Of a DNA stretch of 64,000 nucleotides, positions 55,484-64,000 are shown piece by piece. Positions within the stretch are counted from its first letter, which is position 1. Each line of letters starts with the position of its first letter. The notes beneath the pieces were generated by a model. The model made no database searches. It was given only the letters and a program-made list of their open reading frames with translations, and was not told the origin of the DNA. Origin of the DNA: Actinopolyspora erythraea. GTDB taxonomy: Bacteria; Actinomycetota; Actinomycetes; Mycobacteriales; Pseudonocardiaceae. The position numbers and the translations under genes were made by a program. The stretch lies in NCBI RefSeq assembly GCF_002263515.1, contig NZ_CP022752.1:4526001-4590000 (forward strand), read 5' to 3'.

Positions 55484-55623
55484 GCACTCGTATCGTCTGC
55501 ACCGAGCAACGGTCGTGACACGATCGACGCGTGACCGTGCGGAATCGCGATCCTACTCGGTGGACGCGCAGGCACCGAGGAGTCGGCCCCGGTTTCGCAC
55601 CCGCGGTGACACGGGAGAACAGG

Positions 55624-58600
55624 ATGAACGACCAGTTGAACCAGCAGGACCGAACGTCCCGGAGCCAGGACCCCTCCGGGGGACCGACGCCGGAACGGCG
55701 AACGAGCGGTACCGCCAACAGCTGGTTCACCAACGAGGCGGACGACCGCCCCTCCCAGGAGCAGCCCCCGCAGCAGCAGCCCGCCCCCCAGGGGCGGAGC
55801 ACCACCCCACCCCGTTCGCCGGAGCAGGACGCCGAGCAGCGCTACGCGGAGGCGCTGGCCGCCCTCAACCGGATGATGAGCACCTTCGACTTCACGGAAC
55901 TGTCCTGGGTGACCGAGGTGCTGCGCGCCACGGCGGGGGCGCTGCCGGAAAACGACCCCTCACGCCCCGGGGTCCTCAACAACCTGGGAAGCGCCGCCCA
56001 GCTCGCGCACCTGGCCTCCGGTGATCCGGCGCACCTGGAGGACGCCGTGTCCTACTACCGCGCCGCGGCGGACGCCGCCAGGCGCGACGACCCCGACGAG
56101 GTGCTCTACCTGGGCAACCTGGCACTGGCGCTGACCGACTCCGCGAACCGCACGAACTCGGCCGAGCAGGCCGCCGAGTCCGTCGAGATCGCCCGCCTCG
56201 GCGTCGAGCGCACCGAGAGGACGGCCCCCTCCTCGGTGGGCGACCCCGCCGAGGACCTGCGGCGCCACCGGGGCACCGCCCTGATCAGGCTGGGCAACGC
56301 GCTGAAGCTGCACGCCAGGCTGGCCGCCGACAGCGACTCGGACGACGAGTCGATCGAGGTCTTCCAGGCCGCGCTGCGCGAGTCCGCCGGCCAGGACGGC
56401 GGTGCCCCCACCGACAGCCCCGACCTGCTGATCAGTCTGGGCACGGCCCTGCTGCGCAGGCACGAGCGAACCGCCGACCCGAACGACCTCGACGAGGGGA
56501 TCAAGTACCTGCGGAGCGGCGTGGGAATGCTCCCGGACGGTCAGCACCGCCGTTGGATGCTGCTCCGCTTCGCGGAGGCGCTGCGGCTGCGCTACCGCCA
56601 GCGGGGCGACCTCGCCGACCTGCAGTCCGCGATCAACGAGCTGTTCGGAGTGCTGGAGGACCTGGACGCGGGCAATCCCGTGCTGGGCAAGTTGATCTGG
56701 AACCTCACCTCCTCGACCGTGGAGCACCTGGACAGCAGCGGCGAGTCCGGCAACCTCTACCGCGCGCTGAAGACGATCAGCCCGGTGATGCGCAACCTGG
56801 CCGGCGACGACCCGAACCGTGCCGTGGCGCTGGCCAGCTACGGTGCGCTGGCCCGCAGGCACTACCTGCACGCGGGCAACACGGCCGCGCTGGACACGGC
56901 GGTGTCCGCCGGGGAGGCCGCCACCGACAGCGAGACCACCCCGGCCAAGCGCTGCGCGGTGCTGAACTCGCTCGCCTCCACGCTGATCACGAGGTTCGAG
57001 CGGGCGGGCCAGCAGTCCGACCTCGACCGGGCGGGGGAAGCGGCCGAGGAGGCGCTGCGGAACTCCCAGCAGCGCACCGCGCCGCAGTACACCGCCTACG
57101 CGCAGCTGGGCGTCGTGGCCGCCCACCGCCACCGGCTCAACTCCCGCAACGAGGAGTTGGACACGGCGATCGAGATGTTCGACAGAGCGCTGATCGCCAT
57201 GCCGGACTCGGCACCGGAGCGGGTCACGGTCGCCACCCACCTGGGGCGAGCGCTGCAGACGCTCTACCGCCGCACCGGCAGGCGGAAGCTGTACCGCTGG
57301 GCCCGCAAGACGCTGACCGACGCGGCGACGCTGCCGACCGGTCCCGCCGACCAGCGGCTCAAGGCGGCCAACCTGTGCGGCAGGCTCGCCGCCCAGGCGC
57401 ACCGCTGGTCCGAGGCGCTGGAGTCGTTCACGCTGGCCGTCGAGTTGCTTCCGCTGGTCACCCAGGGCAAGCGCGCCGTGGCCACCCCGACCGTGCAGCG
57501 CCGCTGGGCCCACGTGACCGCCGACGCGGCGGCCTGCGCCATCGAGGTCGGCAAGCCGGAGCGGGCGGTGGAGCTGCTGGAGCACGGCCGCGCCGCGCTG
57601 CTGTCCGAGCTGTTGCCGGCCGGCAGCGAACTCGGCCAGCTCAACCTGAGCCACCCGGAGCTGGCCACCGACGCGGTGCGGCTGCGCAGACTCCTCGACC
57701 GGCATCCCGAGGAACCGGTCCTCGGGGGGGTGGACGTCATCGACGACGTGCGCCGCAGGCGTTGGCTGGCCGACACCTGGGAGGAGCTGCTCGCCGAGAT
57801 CCGCGCGGAGCCCGGGCACGAGGGCAGGCTGCGGACCCGGACCTTCGACGCGCTGGCCGAGGCGGCCGACGAGGGAGCGGTCGTGCTGGTCAACCTGAGC
57901 GAGTACCGTTCCGACGCGGTAATCGTTTTCGGCGGTCGGGCGCTGGTGGTGAGCCTGCCCTCCGTGACCCCGGAACTGGCCGAGGAGCACGCCGCCTCGG
58001 CCCTGAACGCCGCCCAGCAGGCGCAGCGCACCGCAGACACCGAACGCGCGCTCGCCACCACGCTGGACTGGCTGTGGCGGAACGTCACGCGCCCCGTCCT
58101 CGACCGGATGGGCTACACCCGGATGCCGCCGCAGGGCGCGCGCTGGCCCAGGCTGTGGTGGAGCACGCAGGGCGCGGCAGCCTTCCTTCCGCTGCACGCC
58201 GCGACGTCCACCGCGGGGGAGAGCGCGCTGGACCGCGTGATCTCCTCCTACACGCCGGGGCTGCGCGTGCTGCTGGCGGCCAAGCACCGCCGGGAGCGGG
58301 CGGAGGCCGACGGGGCGCTGATCGCCGGACCGGCCGACGAGCGGACCCCCGAGCAGCCGGGCAGGATCCCGGCGCGGCACTGGCCCTCGGCGACGCTGAT
58401 GTCGGAGCGCGACCACACCGCCGACGACGTGTTCGCCGCGTTCGACCAGCACCAGCTGGTCCACGTCTGCGAGCCGAGCACGCAGCACGCCGCCCAGCCC
58501 GCCGCCGGGCTGGTGCTGGACCGGGAGGAGCGCGCGAGGTCGCTGAACCTGCTGGAGCTGGGCCAGCGCGACTTCGGCGACGCGAAGTTCCTGTGCCTGG

Positions 58601-58878
58601 CCCGCTGCAGGACCAAGGACACCCCCTCGGCCGCCGCGTTGACGATGGCTGGCGCGTTCGCCTTCATGGGCTTCAGACACGTGATCAGCACCCTGTGGGC
58701 GATGCACCGGGGGCCGGCGGAGGACGTGCTCTCGGCGCTGTACGCGGAGCTGGCCCGTGACGGCGAGTTCCGCGCCGAGTTCTCCCCGAGCGTGCTCAAC
58801 GCGACGACGCGCAGGCTGCGCAAGCGGTATCCCGACGCACCGACGCTGTGGGCCGGTTACACCCACGTGGGGACCTGA
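55624..58878 (+). CDS. TPR-repeat protein with C-terminal CHAT (caspase-like) domain
   Basis: 1084 residues from ATG 55624 (GGGAG 6-8 nt upstream). A disordered Gln/Pro N-terminus (~60 residues) is followed by ~550 residues of TPR-like helical pairs (LNNLGSAAQLAHLASGDPAH, LYLGNLALALTDSANRTNSA and similar). The C-terminal ~300 residues are a CHAT domain (GAAAFLPLHAATSTAGESAL, FLCLARCRTKDTPSAAALTM, GFRHVISTLWAM). In active CHAT proteases the His lies in an H-x2-C-H-G-like motif and the Cys in S-A-C. Here the first motif reads H947-V-C-E-P-S-T, lacking the H-G, while C995 remains. Protease activity is therefore uncertain. It is divergent from rpoB. Confidence 0.85.
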   Translation: MNDQLNQQDRTSRSQDPSGGPTPERRTSGTANSWFTNEADDRPSQEQPPQQQPAPQGRSTTPPRSPEQDAEQRYAEALAALNRMMSTFDFTELSWVTEVLRATAGALPENDPSRPGVLNNLGSAAQLAHLASGDPAHLEDAVSYYRAAADAARRDDPDEVLYLGNLALALTDSANRTNSAEQAAESVEIARLGVERTERTAPSSVGDPAEDLRRHRGTALIRLGNALKLHARLAADSDSDDESIEVFQAALRESAGQDGGAPTDSPDLLISLGTALLRRHERTADPNDLDEGIKYLRSGVGMLPDGQHRRWMLLRFAEALRLRYRQRGDLADLQSAINELFGVLEDLDAGNPVLGKLIWNLTSSTVEHLDSSGESGNLYRALKTISPVMRNLAGDDPNRAVALASYGALARRHYLHAGNTAALDTAVSAGEAATDSETTPAKRCAVLNSLASTLITRFERAGQQSDLDRAGEAAEEALRNSQQRTAPQYTAYAQLGVVAAHRHRLNSRNEELDTAIEMFDRALIAMPDSAPERVTVATHLGRALQTLYRRTGRRKLYRWARKTLTDAATLPTGPADQRLKAANLCGRLAAQAHRWSEALESFTLAVELLPLVTQGKRAVATPTVQRRWAHVTADAAACAIEVGKPERAVELLEHGRAALLSELLPAGSELGQLNLSHPELATDAVRLRRLLDRHPEEPVLGGVDVIDDVRRRRWLADTWEELLAEIRAEPGHEGRLRTRTFDALAEAADEGAVVLVNLSEYRSDAVIVFGGRALVVSLPSVTPELAEEHAASALNAAQQAQRTADTERALATTLDWLWRNVTRPVLDRMGYTRMPPQGARWPRLWWSTQGAAAFLPLHAATSTAGESALDRVISSYTPGLRVLLAAKHRRERAEADGALIAGPADERTPEQPGRIPARHWPSATLMSERDHTADDVFAAFDQHQLVHVCEPSTQHAAQPAAGLVLDREERARSLNLLELGQRDFGDAKFLCLARCRTKDTPSAAALTMAGAFAFMGFRHVISTLWAMHRGPAEDVLSALYAELARDGEFRAEFSPSVLNATTRRLRKRYPDAPTLWAGYTHVGT

Positions 58879-59619: not shown

Positions 59620-59829
59620 CGCTGAACCGCTCCCCGGAAGTCGGGGCCGAAACTCGGCACCGCCCCCGAGAAGCGGTTCGGACCGGTTCACGAACCGGGA
59701 CGCCGCACGAGCCGTCGGCTCACTCGAACCGCTCGTTCTTCACGGCGTCGATGAACGCGGCCCACTGGGTGCCGGTGGCGGTGAAGTACCCGGCCGCGCG
59801 ATCCTTGGTGTCACGCACGGCGGCGCCGT
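59620..59829. repeat. 210-nt direct repeat, left copy
   Basis: Nearly identical (one inserted base) to 60344-60554, ~725 nt apart. It covers the last ~37 codons of a DUF397 gene and ~100 nt downstream, including the hairpin CCGGTTC-AC-GAACCGG. Confidence 0.9.
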
Positions 59830-59914
59830 TCGGGGTACGGCCGACCTCGACGCAACTCGTTTCCTGCGAGGAATAACTGGCTTTGCGCCAGTTACTCGGG
59901 TGTACGCTCTTCAT
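59720..59914 (-). CDS. DUF397 domain protein
   Basis: 64 residues: HPSNWRKASYSSQETSCVEV ... GAAVRDTKDRAAGYFTATGT ... WAAFIDAVKNERFE. This is the standard DUF397 partner found next to XRE/DUF5753 regulators in actinobacteria. It overlaps the upstream regulator fragment by 4 nt. Its 3' half is identical in DNA to that of the paralogue at 60445-60636. Confidence 0.85.
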   Translation of the reverse strand: MKSVHPSNWRKASYSSQETSCVEVGRTPNGAAVRDTKDRAAGYFTATGTQWAAFIDAVKNERFE

Positions 59915-60315
59915 GCGTTAGCCTCCATCTCGTCGGCAATCGTGGCGATGAACTCGGCGCTGTCTGTTGGGTGCATCGCCGCCGACCGGAGGTTAGTCGC
60001 CGCATCGCTGTAGGTTCGAACGTCCCCAGCGTTCGACAGGAACGCTGATGACGACAAGTGTTCGACGTGCACGATCGGCGCAGCTTTTGGAAATTCGAAC
60101 AGGATGAACGGCCCAGCGTGCGCGGGAGTCCATTCGGTCGATCCGCTTCGGACCACCTGAATGGTCACATTGTCCAGCTCACTCAACTTCAGGAGCTGGT
60201 GTAACTGGTCCGTCATCACCTCGCGGCCACCGATGGGCTCCCGCAAAGCGCCCTCCATGACGATCGCCACTAACGACGGTGGGCGTCGCCGCGTGAGTAC
60301 GTCGCGACGCCCCAC
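59911..60315 (-). pseudogene. truncated XRE/DUF5753 regulator, C-terminal fragment
   Basis: 134 residues aligning to roughly the last 135 of the intact regulator at 60633-61493 (GRRDVLTRR, ELDNVT, PAHAG-FxLFEF, HVEHLxSxAFLS). The helix-turn-helix and the first half of the DUF5753 domain are missing. Similarity continues in frame for only a few codons (VAIRV) upstream of 60315 and is then cut at 60344, exactly where the right copy of the 210-nt repeat begins. The fragment is still open and could be translated from GTG 60315, but DNA binding is lost. Confidence 0.75.
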
Positions 60316-60343: not shown

Positions 60344-60554
60344 CGCTGAACCGCTCCCCGGAAAGTCGGGGCCGAAACTCGGCACCGCCCCCGAGAAGCG
60401 GTTCGGACCGGTTCACGAACCGGGACGCCGCACGAGCCGTCGGCTCACTCGAACCGCTCGTTCTTCACGGCGTCGATGAACGCGGCCCACTGGGTGCCGG
60501 TGGCGGTGAAGTACCCGGCCGCGCGATCCTTGGTGTCACGCACGGCGGCGCCGT
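60344..60554. repeat. 210-nt direct repeat, right copy
   Basis: Partner of 59620-59829. Its outer edge is the breakpoint of the truncated regulator. Confidence 0.9.
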
Positions 60555-60636
60555 CACCGACGCGGCCGATCTCGACGCAGTGCGAGTGTTGGTTCGAGCG
60601 GCTAGACTTCCGCCATCCTCGGGGGTGTACCGTCAT
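60445..60636 (-). CDS. DUF397 domain protein
   Basis: 63 residues: HPRGWRKSSRSNQHSHCVEI then a C-terminal half identical to the paralogue at 59720. It overlaps the intact XRE regulator stop by 4 nt and is translationally coupled to it, the usual arrangement. Confidence 0.88.
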   Translation of the reverse strand: MTVHPRGWRKSSRSNQHSHCVEIGRVGDGAAVRDTKDRAAGYFTATGTQWAAFIDAVKNERFE

Positions 60637-61493
60637 TCCTGGCTGTCCTCCAACTCCGTTGCGATGCTGGCGATGAGTTCCGCCGAGTCCTCTGGACTCA
60701 TCGCCACGCCACGGAGGTTAGCCGTCGCTTCCTGGTACACCTCGATCTCCCCAGGGCTGCTGAGAAACGCATCGGATCGCAGGTGTTCCACGTGCACCAC
60801 CGGTGCCGCCTTGGCGAATTCGAAGAGCAGGAAGTGACCCGCGTGCGCGGGTGTCCACTCGCCGGTCCTGCTGGGGATCACGCGCATGGTCACGTTGTCG
60901 AGTTCGGCCATCTTGGCGAGGTGCCGTAGCTGGTCGGCCATGATTTCGGCACTGCCCATCGGCTCGTGCAGCGCCCATTCACCGATGAACGAGTGCAGCG
61001 TCGGGGCGTTTCGTCTTGTCAGCACGTCACGCCGCCCCACGCGCATCGTGACTTGTGCTTCCAGCTCTTCCGAAGGTGTCCCGCTGGACATGACCGCTCG
61101 TGCGTAGTCCGCGGTCTGGAGCGGTCCCGGAATCATGATCGGTGAGACGTCCACGATCGAGGTCGCTGTCCGCTCGAACTCGATCAGCGTGGTCAGATCT
61201 TGGTTCACCGATCGTGTTCTCGGCTTGATCCAGTTCGTTTCGTCTGTCGCATCGCGGGCCATTGTCGCGAGCCTGTCGCGCTCGGATTCCGATGCTCCGT
61301 ATGTCGTGAGCAGTGCGACAACCATTTCCGGGGACTGCGGCGTCTGCCCGGTTTCGAGTCTGGCGTACTTCGAGTGGTGCCCGCCGAGGCGCTCCGCTAC
61401 ATCGCGCACTGTCATTCCTGCTTGTTCGCGGAAATCGCGCAATTCTGCGCCAAGAGCGCGCGCCCTGGGAGAAGTTCGCTTGGTGTTCGCCAT
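60633..61493 (-). CDS. XRE-family helix-turn-helix regulator with DUF5753 domain
   Basis: 286 residues. An N-terminal helix-turn-helix (LGAELRDFREQAGMTVRDVA, then GGHHSKYARLETGQ) is followed by the DUF5753 ligand domain (IPGPLQTADYARAV, GRRDVLTRR, WTPAHAGHFLLFEF). This is the Scr1/WhiJ-type regulator group that pairs with DUF397 proteins. The ATG at 61493 sits one base from a CGACA-N6-TGTCG site (61495), so autorepression is likely. Confidence 0.92.
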   Translation of the reverse strand: MANTKRTSPRARALGAELRDFREQAGMTVRDVAERLGGHHSKYARLETGQTPQSPEMVVALLTTYGASESERDRLATMARDATDETNWIKPRTRSVNQDLTTLIEFERTATSIVDVSPIMIPGPLQTADYARAVMSSGTPSEELEAQVTMRVGRRDVLTRRNAPTLHSFIGEWALHEPMGSAEIMADQLRHLAKMAELDNVTMRVIPSRTGEWTPAHAGHFLLFEFAKAAPVVHVEHLRSDAFLSSPGEIEVYQEATANLRGVAMSPEDSAELIASIATELEDSQE

Positions 61494-61645: not shown

Positions 61646-61864
61646 ATGTCCCAGAGATACGAGACGTCCGGTTTCGGGGTGCGGGTGAGATGTCGTCACG
61701 AGGGTGGTGAGGGGGCGCTTCGGGTGTGGCGGTCACAGTGGACTCCCGGGGTGATCCGCATCGAGACGCCGACGGTCTACAACCGGACGGTGTGGACGGT
61801 GCGGCAGGCCCGGGAACTGCGGGCGGTGCTCGACGCGGCGATCCGGGCGAGTGAGCTCTCATGA
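61646..61864 (+). CDS. small hypothetical protein
   Basis: 72 residues, family not recognised. Beta-rich middle (RVRCRHEGGEGALRVWRSQW) and a C-terminal helix (WTVRQARELRAVLDAAIRAS). GGGAG lies 8 nt before the ATG. Its stop overlaps the next start (ATGA). It is divergent from the XRE regulator and may be controlled by the paired operators. Confidence 0.6.
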   Translation: MSQRYETSGFGVRVRCRHEGGEGALRVWRSQWTPGVIRIETPTVYNRTVWTVRQARELRAVLDAAIRASELS

Positions 61865-62103
61865 GCAGCCCGCACGCCGAGATCGCGATCCTGGCACGAC
61901 GCTGCGAGTGGCTGATGAGCGACGCGGCCTTCGCGCTGGGCTGGCGCCGTTACAGTCCGGCGCAGTGCCGTGATGCCGCCGCCGCGCTCGAAGAGTTCGC
62001 CACCGCCCTGCGTCAGCACGCCGAGACCCTGCCCGCCGGGGAACTTCCCGGTCATGAGCCGAACGGGCGGGCCGCCCCCGTCGAGGGGGATTCCGATGCC
62101 TGA
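61861..62103 (+). CDS. small helical hypothetical protein
   Basis: 80 residues, not recognised: AEIAILARRCEWLMSDAAFA, then RYSPAQCRDAAAALEEFATA, all predicted helix with an acidic disordered tail. Coupled to the genes on both sides by overlaps of 4 and 8 nt. Confidence 0.6.
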   Translation: MSSPHAEIAILARRCEWLMSDAAFALGWRRYSPAQCRDAAAALEEFATALRQHAETLPAGELPGHEPNGRAAPVEGDSDA

Positions 62104-62758: not shown

Positions 62759-63097
62759 ATGACAACGCCAACCAGTGAGCGCGACGAAACGTTCGCCCAC
62801 GAGCCGGTGGCCTCGCACTCGGCCCAGTTCCCGCTGGCACGCCCGCAGGATGAACAGCTCACCGGCCCCTTCTCACAACCGTGGGGACTGCGGAACATGG
62901 TCGCCGTCGGCGATCCGACGGACAGGGCACTGAACGGCCGCTACGACCACGACCGCCAGGTCGCCGTCGACGAGCGGGGCATGCCGCTGCACGAACTTCA
63001 CATGGGCATGACCACGACCAACATGGACGGCAACGAAGGCCCCTCCGAGGACTGGTCGGCCAAGGACTTCGCCCCGGACATGTCCGAATCGAACTGA
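62759..63097 (+). CDS. ATP-grasp-modified RiPP precursor peptide
   Basis: 112 residues. The leader has FPLARPQ (24-30) and PWGLRNM (41-47), then YDHDRQVAVDERGMPLHEL (62-80). The C-terminal core starts TTTNMDGNEG (85-94) and goes on SEDWSAKDFAPDMSESN. This is the layout of the putative ATP-grasp target RiPP family, whose core is rich in Thr and Asp/Glu that the partner ligase can join as side-chain esters or amides. AAGGAAGGAG lies ~9 nt before the ATG. The maturase gene starts 18 nt after the stop, so the two are one operon. The core sequence and ring pattern are not known to me. Confidence 0.8.
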   Translation: MTTPTSERDETFAHEPVASHSAQFPLARPQDEQLTGPFSQPWGLRNMVAVGDPTDRALNGRYDHDRQVAVDERGMPLHELHMGMTTTNMDGNEGPSEDWSAKDFAPDMSESN

Positions 63098-63115
63098 TCC
63101 GGAAAGGCTTCATCC

Positions 63116-64000
63116 GTGACAGTGCTCATCCTCGCCCGCGACATCGACCCCAGTGCGGACGCGATGGTCGAGGCCGTCCAACAACGCGGCACGCGGGTTC
63201 ATCGGGTGAACACCGGATGGTTTCCCGCGCGGCTCGGCCTGGCCGCCGAGCTGCGCGGGGATCGCTGGTGCGGACACCTGACCACTCCCACGCGCACCAT
63301 CGATCTGTCCGAGATCACCGGTGTGTACTACCGCGCACCCGAAGCGTTCCGGTTCCCGAACGAGTGGGAACCACAGGTACGCCAGCACGCGTTCCTCGAA
63401 GCGAAGTACGGCCTGGGTGGGGTGCTGGCCTCGCTACCCGCGATATGGGTCAACCATCCGTCCCGACTGGCCGACGCCGCGTACAAACCGGTGCAGCTCG
63501 CCACGGCGAGCCGGCTCGGCCTGTGCGTGCCCGAGACGGCGTTGACCAACGAGCCGACTTCGTTCACCTCGTTCGCGGTCCGGGGGCGAACGATCACGAA
63601 AATGCTCGGCAACACCAGCCTCACCAGCGACGACACCCACTCCGTTGCCTGGACACGGGTGCTCGACGCGGCCGACCTCGACGACCTGAACGGCATCGAG
63701 TCGACCGTGCATCTGGCCCAGCGATGGGTACCGAAGCGGGCCGAGGCACGTGTCATCGCGGTTGGTGACACGATCACTACCGTGCGTATCGAAGCGGGAA
63801 ACGCCGCGTCGCACGTGGACTGGCGCAGCGACATCGGAGCACTGCACTACGAGCTCGTCACCCCACCGCAGCGGGTCGCCGACGGCGTGCGCGCGCTGAT
63901 GCGGAGATTCGGTCTGCTGTACGGCGCGCTGGACTTCGTGATCACTCCCGAGGGCCAGTGGGTCTTCCTGGAGATCAACCCGGGCGGTCAGTACGGGTGG
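63116..64000 (+). CDS. ATP-grasp ribosomal peptide maturase (partial, runs off the right edge)
   Basis: At least 295 residues, no stop within the window. Start GTG 63116 with AAAGG 8 nt upstream. The N-terminal pre-ATP-grasp part reads TVLILARDIDPSADAMVEAV ... VHRVNTGWFPARLG. The centre has NHPSRLADAAYKPVQLATAS and LGLCVPETALTNEP; TITKMLGNTS gives a nucleotide-binding Lys. The C-terminal LYGALDFVITPEGQWVFLEI-NPGGQYGW holds the metal ligands Glu and Asn of the family signature (E-x-N-P-x-G-Q-[YW]-x-W). Members of this group (the SAV_5884-type maturases) activate acidic side chains of the precursor as acyl phosphates. A methyltransferase gene often follows, here beyond the window. Confidence 0.88.
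   Translation, partial: MTVLILARDIDPSADAMVEAVQQRGTRVHRVNTGWFPARLGLAAELRGDRWCGHLTTPTRTIDLSEITGVYYRAPEAFRFPNEWEPQVRQHAFLEAKYGLGGVLASLPAIWVNHPSRLADAAYKPVQLATASRLGLCVPETALTNEPTSFTSFAVRGRTITKMLGNTSLTSDDTHSVAWTRVLDAADLDDLNGIESTVHLAQRWVPKRAEARVIAVGDTITTVRIEAGNAASHVDWRSDIGALHYELVTPPQRVADGVRALMRRFGLLYGALDFVITPEGQWVFLEINPGGQYGW

Follow-up and report, generated by a model that had tools for sequence, protein, structure and literature searches.

The precursor, ligase and methyltransferase genes

The window analysed here is a stretch of 64,000 nucleotides (G000:C1:4526001-4590000) in a genome that consists of one contig of 5.24 Mb. At its right-hand end lies a gene for a short precursor peptide, followed by the gene for an ATP-grasp ligase, which crosses the window edge, and by a gene for a PIMT-type methyltransferase beyond the edge (Table 1). 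The genes were followed past the edge in locus L002, where a position plus 60000 gives the window count.

Table 1. Positions of the graspetide genes, the upstream regulators and the second locus of the genome.
Feature	Position	Strand	Evidence or remark
Precursor peptide gene, 112 aa	62759..63097	+	ORF; TIGR04186 match
Predicted core T85-N112	63011..63094	+	A2 alignment; spacing versus fuscimiditide
ATP-grasp ligase, 327 aa	63116..64000, on past the edge (L002:3116-4099)	+	TIGR04187, PDB 5ig9
PIMT-type methyltransferase, 382 aa	L002:4086-5234, wholly beyond the window		Third gene; TIGR04188, PF01135
XRE-DUF5753 regulator	60633..61493	-	PF19054, PF13560
DUF397 partner of the regulator	60445..60636	-	PF04149
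Second graspetide locus including regulators	G000:C1:2540817-2545265 (L093:1817-6265)		Precursor to methyltransferase at 2542860-2545265

A purine-rich ribosome-binding site, GGAAAGGAAGGAGAA, stands directly 5' of the precursor gene. The original prediction had described a 112-residue precursor with a PWGLR motif and a core of T85-N112 containing one TTT block and seven acidic residues, and the open reading frame agreed with this exactly. The leader motif is located at P41-W42-G43-L44-R45, and the core comprises a hydroxyl arm (T85-T86-T87), an Asp-Gly site (D90-G91) and an acidic arm (D98, D103 and D107), the seven acids being D90, E93, E97, D98, D103, D107 and E110. The C-terminus of the precursor reads TTTNMDGNEGPSEDWSAKDFAPDMSESN. 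Residues D90, G91, E97, D98, D103 and D107 were invariant in an alignment of 26 precursors (A2), and the closest named precursors were Actinopolyspora proteins. A comparison with the TIGR04186 profile, proposed earlier as a check, yielded a score of 31 bits at a curated cut-off of 25; this exceeds chance expectation, and similarity to the ATP-grasp target family is present. Searches of the PDB with the precursor and its profile returned only matches with E values of 0.27 or worse, by name to unrelated enzymes or eukaryotic proteins, and a PDB search with the core alone returned no match.

The ligase gene starts with a GTG codon 18 nt past the precursor stop and encodes EINPGGQYGW at the window edge, and this is the maturase with the motif E-x-N-P-G-G-Q-Y-G-W that had been noted before. 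Its integrity beyond the edge had been singled out for inspection, and the frame was found to be open to its end in L002 with no internal stop. Residues 1-324 align with PDB 5ig9 (E = 6.7e-44), and other solved relatives (5ig8, 9bou, CdnC 7mgv and AMdnB 7m4s) also align along the protein. The ligase scored 347.1 bits (E = 8.5e-104) with TIGR04187, just below the curated naming cut-off of 350, and contains a match to the MvdD pre-ATP-grasp domain (PF21068). A broken maturase was rejected since the ligase is intact past the edge.

The methyltransferase, suggested earlier as a gene that might come next, overlaps the end of the ligase with its start by 14 nt and scored 338.1 bits (E = 7.4e-101) with TIGR04188, below the curated naming cut-off of 380. 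Two other identities were discarded: a precursor-ligase pair without a methyltransferase, because the third gene is present, and a housekeeping PIMT, because the models for PIMTs gave at most 107.8 bits versus 338.1 for TIGR04188. The protein contains GTGTG at residue 115 and WLTHGKP at residues 347-353, near the C-terminus, and the latter fits by its sequence the WXXXGXP motif that PMC13001092 gives for RiPP-associated PIMTs. In an alignment of 20 sequences, G115, T116, G117, G119, W347 and P353 were invariant and G351 varied.

The earlier proposal had been to look for a transporter to the right of position 64,000; none was seen directly after the methyltransferase, nor was a gene for an exporter or a leader protease seen in the cluster or directly downstream. 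The next gene-like ORFs lie on the opposite strand, from L002:5459, and from their translations we take them to be an Mce-type operon. A scan for sigma-70 promoters found 0, and terminator-like sites numbered 2 versus 1.5 expected.

Assignment to the graspimiditides

The original assignment to a graspetide-type RiPP cluster was borne out by the family matches of all three genes. Judged from the sequences, the gene set has the published composition of group 13 graspetides, or graspimiditides: a graspetide-type ATP-grasp ligase adjoins the precursor, a PIMT-homologous methyltransferase is part of the cluster and appears to carry the C-terminal WXXXGXP extension, and the putative loop corresponds to the description in PMC12291112 of Thr and Asp flanking 10-12 residues with a methylated Asp, T87 and D98 enclosing 10. 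According to PMC13001092 and PMC10787088, 962-1,432 clusters of this group have been reported and four graspimiditides are characterised, namely fuscimiditide, amycolimiditide, albusimiditide and SsfA(BM). The earlier remark that few products have been characterised thus stands with the four in print, but the subclass itself is well charted, and PMC13001092 mentions eight clusters of graspimiditide core motifs. Among the papers searched, none named both Actinopolyspora and graspetide.

We consider that these genes form a complete and functional three-gene graspimiditide cluster with the mechanism proposed below, with a probability of roughly 80%. The enzymes are of the ordinary kind for this class, but the arms of the peptide are rearranged, and a slightly different ring pattern may result.

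We also examined the arrangement of genes at 30 ligase loci using tblastn. A methyltransferase followed the ligase in all 30, although L050 contained two small pieces only, and a precursor-like match preceded the ligase in 23; with stop-bounded ORFs, a whole or partial precursor was also recognised in L033, L043, L044 and L049. In the last of these, from Saccharopolyspora spinosa, two ligase-methyltransferase sets are located within about 5 kb, with a different core beside the first. Ligase identities outside Actinopolyspora were 47-62% at these loci, including a 60% identical ligase (L031) on a probably mis-binned contig labelled Candidatus Melainabacteria. The ligase also matched 77 plasmid records, all at <60% identity, of which 39 were from Streptomyces.

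Comparison with fuscimiditide and related precursors

The system for fuscimiditide in Thermobifida fusca (ThfA/ThfB/ThfM; PDB 7LIF) likewise consists of a precursor, an ATP-grasp ligase and a PIMT-type methyltransferase. Its inner ester links Thr7 to Asp18 and encloses a loop of 10 residues, its outer ester joins Thr3 and Asp22, and the aspartimide is situated in the loop, as described in PMC12291112 and PMC13003496. Residues 3-22 in PDB 7li2/7lif are TMRVTYPDGQKPGQSDVEKD. We read the aspartimide as D10-G11 since this is the sole Asp-Gly within these residues and since glycine follows the methylated Asp in all characterised members according to PMC13001092. On this numbering, T7, D10-G11 and D18 have the spacing of T87, D90-G91 and D98, with T87 at -3 and D98 at +8 from D90 and a loop of 10 residues in both. 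The outer residues differ, being a pair at -7/+12 in fuscimiditide, whereas the hydroxyls of T85/T86 are at -5/-4 and the aspartates D103/D107 at +13/+17 here; the leader motif is RPFG in the former (PMC13003496) and QPWG in the latter. By their published description in PMC13001092, rather than by core sequence, amycolimiditide, albusimiditide and SsfA(BM) are graspimiditides that have an A-B-M cluster and a DG within the loop, as here.

A family in the Pseudonocardiales annotated as 'putative ATP-grasp-modified RiPP', with the core PTA-xx-V[ST]-xx-DGDEGPSED[WF]-xY-D[FY]-x-PD, has the leader, the DG site, the ED pair and the aspartates in common with the window precursor. Searching with a profile built on 26 precursors gave 531 matches, and the best 120 of these together with relatives from a separate search made up the 126 proteins compared; distant cores are under-sampled, because the proteins compared are the best-scoring part of the matches. 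We anchored 123 of the 126 on the core, leaving out the truncated P0021 and P0063 as well as P0080, in which EDR replaces ED-aromatic. Among these best-scoring relatives, DG and a Ser/Thr at -3 were present in 123/123, a Ser/Thr at -8 from the DG aspartate in 117/123, and a spacer of two residues from ED-aromatic to the following Asp also in 117/123.

Five of the 123 anchored cores (P0001-P0005) are of the window type. This set comprises the window core, two cores from A. mortivallis records, that of A. alba and one from a further protein. All five have no hydroxyl at -8, carry T-[T/S]-T across positions -5 to -3 and are one residue longer in the acidic arm, which reads EDW-SAK-D. The only other anchored core with no Ser/Thr at -8 was P0099, an A. 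mortivallis paralogue with a one-residue deletion, and the only other three-residue spacer was in P0110, which has a repeated EDWEY. The acidic arm of P0110, EDWEYEDWEYDFWPD, is a natural extension of this arm. Three proteins that keep both the -8 hydroxyl and the two-residue spacer (P0022, P0042 and P0093) also contain Ser/Thr at all of -5, -4 and -3; the TTT block and acid count, noted in the original prediction, are hence not distinctive. On these alignments, the core is distinguished by two features in combination, a lost -8 hydroxyl and an additional residue in the acidic arm.

The same division was seen in 31 distinct cores on the retrieved loci: 25 had Ser/Thr at -8 and -3, 4 were of the window type, and the 2 others were Actinopolyspora paralogues in which the anchor is displaced by DGDG or by deletion of one residue. 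A DNA pattern for the inserted arm matched 4 of 397 sampled genomes of the order, all from Actinopolyspora (1 of 85 genera), and the precursor family itself was found in 85 of 390 genomes and 24 of 46 genera of the taxonomic family. In the largest precursor cluster of Makarova et al. (PMC8939145), as presented there, only the aspartates are conserved, the positions of the hydroxyls vary, and 504 of the 958 proteins match no named core motif. Given that variation, a shifted hydroxyl arm is to be expected in that cluster; what these data add is that both arms have changed together in one genus, inside an otherwise uniform subfamily.

Proposed chemistry

By analogy with these systems, the ATP-grasp ligase would bind the leader around PWGLR and phosphorylate the aspartates of the acidic arm, on which the more N-terminal threonine hydroxyls would attack to give nested omega-esters. 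The inner ester is predicted to join T87 and D98 around the 10-residue loop; T85, and perhaps T86, would be linked to D103/D107 by one or two outer esters. The methyltransferase would recognise the cross-linked stem-loop and methylate D90, after which D90-G91 could close to an aspartimide, which in turn could open to isoaspartate. The best evidence for the inner ester and for an aspartimide at D90 is the -3/0/+8 spacing, which agrees with fuscimiditide. A host protease would cut off the leader; PMC12291112 describes the native leader proteases as undetermined for any graspimiditide as of 2025.

A new stem geometry with up to three esters, running from the contiguous T-[T/S]-T block to aspartates spaced by five and then four residues and arising when both arms changed in concert within one lineage, is the less likely reading. 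The product could instead be an ordinary bicyclic graspimiditide with T87-D98 inside, T85 joined to D103 or D107 outside, and T86 spare, a reading to which we assign only slightly less than even odds. Two nested links are present in fuscimiditide, the ligase of which, as reported in PMC12291112, made no extra links immediately adjacent to existing ones in engineered cores, so that the use of all of T85-T86-T87 is less favoured. Against such a limit of two esters, a hydroxyl at position 86 (T or S) is kept in all five window-type precursors, the three aspartates are invariant in alignment A2, and members of the class are credited in PMC13001092 with two to five links.

The lasting product may also differ from an imide. 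SsfA(BM) was isolated as a mixture of isoAsp and Asp (PMC10787088), and in two other members hydrolysis turns the aspartimide chiefly into isoAsp (PMC13001092), which would suit a product with isoaspartate at position 90 and the imide merely as an intermediate. We regard this as a tentative alternative, since purification yielded the aspartimide for three of the four characterised members according to PMC13001092.

Evolution of the cluster

For the ligase tree, we used 28 of 29 prepared sequences, an A. mortivallis paralogue having been dropped for an early stop. Several other loci were outside the tree, as was the frame-broken A. xinjiangensis copy (L024), at which the precursor is intact and the ligase matches lie in three frames near a contig end, by decay or sequencing error. 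The window clade consisted of 3 sequences with support of 100/100 on a branch of 0.51, placed within a group of 22 sequences (89/93). Both this group and a 13-sequence group inside it (94/96) are below the mark for firm support of the tree tool. The other 19 members of the 22-sequence group yielded 18 readable cores, one of these from a split precursor frame, and all 18 were canonical; for one no precursor was found. Because the window clade nests among ligases with canonical cores, the shifted form, with its compressed hydroxyl arm and an acidic arm that is one residue longer, looks derived.

Canonical paralogues are also present in Actinopolyspora (L009, L010, L027 and L046). Both core types occur in A. 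xinjiangensis and A. mortivallis, and the window genome contains only the shifted type, plus the distant second locus. The genus thereby offers a natural comparison between canonical paralogues and a form whose stem arms have both moved. This comparison is relevant to the pairing of side chains by ATP-grasp ligases and to the application of these enzymes in peptide cross-linking. The bigger challenge named in PMC13001092, that of tying aspartimidylated RiPPs to a biological function, is not solved by the Actinopolyspora cluster.

We estimated pN/pS for the orthologous precursors of the window genome, A. alba, A. mortivallis and A. xinjiangensis. The ratios were <1 in all six pairs, at 0.27-0.48 for the leader and 0.18-0.82 for the core, where changes are few and the values come with no significance figure. 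The hydroxyls and aspartates of both arms were kept among the four, T86 changing to Ser only. It is very improbable that the cluster is decaying and that the intact frames are remnants no longer used, given these ratios and the integrity of the three genes in the window genome as well as in A. alba and A. mortivallis. Possibly indicative of decay are the A. xinjiangensis ligase, split by frame shifts near the contig end, a 67-residue ligase stretch beside a methyltransferase in another species (G002), and the lack of a ligase match in 3 of 10 Actinopolyspora genomes. However, a sequencing error at the contig end could explain the A. xinjiangensis break, and the G002 stretch is possibly of the paralogous type.

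Second locus and neighbouring genes

The second graspetide locus of the genome has the order XRE-DUF5753, DUF397, precursor, ligase and methyltransferase. Its 97-residue precursor scored 23.4 bits with TIGR04186, below the cut-off of 25, and the 328-residue ligase and the methyltransferase scored 381.2 bits with TIGR04187 and 324.2 bits with TIGR04188, respectively. The order from precursor to methyltransferase and an upstream XRE-DUF5753/DUF397 pair, here about 0.9 kb from the precursor, are common to both loci, whereas the second precursor differs in its leader (RPFGLT) and in its core, which ends in TRQDTRYDSQWFVDRD, and the two ligases are only 36-37% identical.

At the window cluster, the start of the XRE-DUF5753 gene is about 1.3 kb from that of the precursor. 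With 40 DUF5753 matches in the window genome, we estimate that, if they were randomly scattered, one would be found in the 3 kb preceding a given gene in about 2% of cases. The association of XRE-DUF5753/DUF397 with groups 11 and 13 has already been published (PMC13097080), and an earlier list (PMC8939145) includes DUF5753 regulators next to ATP-grasp genes of actinobacteria. The XRE-DUF5753 protein, together with its DUF397 partner, probably regulates the cluster.

Adjoining the intact pair (60445-61493), positions 59720-60315 contain a partial DUF5753 protein without a helix-turn-helix and, by eye, a small DUF397-like ORF; the partial protein is probably a truncated tandem copy. Two small ORFs at 61646-61864 and 61861-62103 gave no family match, and relatives of one or both are located upstream of the graspetide loci L006, L009, L010, L012, L014, L016 and L024 in other Actinopolyspora genomes. 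Farther upstream, at 55591-58878, the window encodes a protein of about 1,100 residues, the C-terminal domain of which is of the CHAT (caspase-like) type (E = 8.4e-15).
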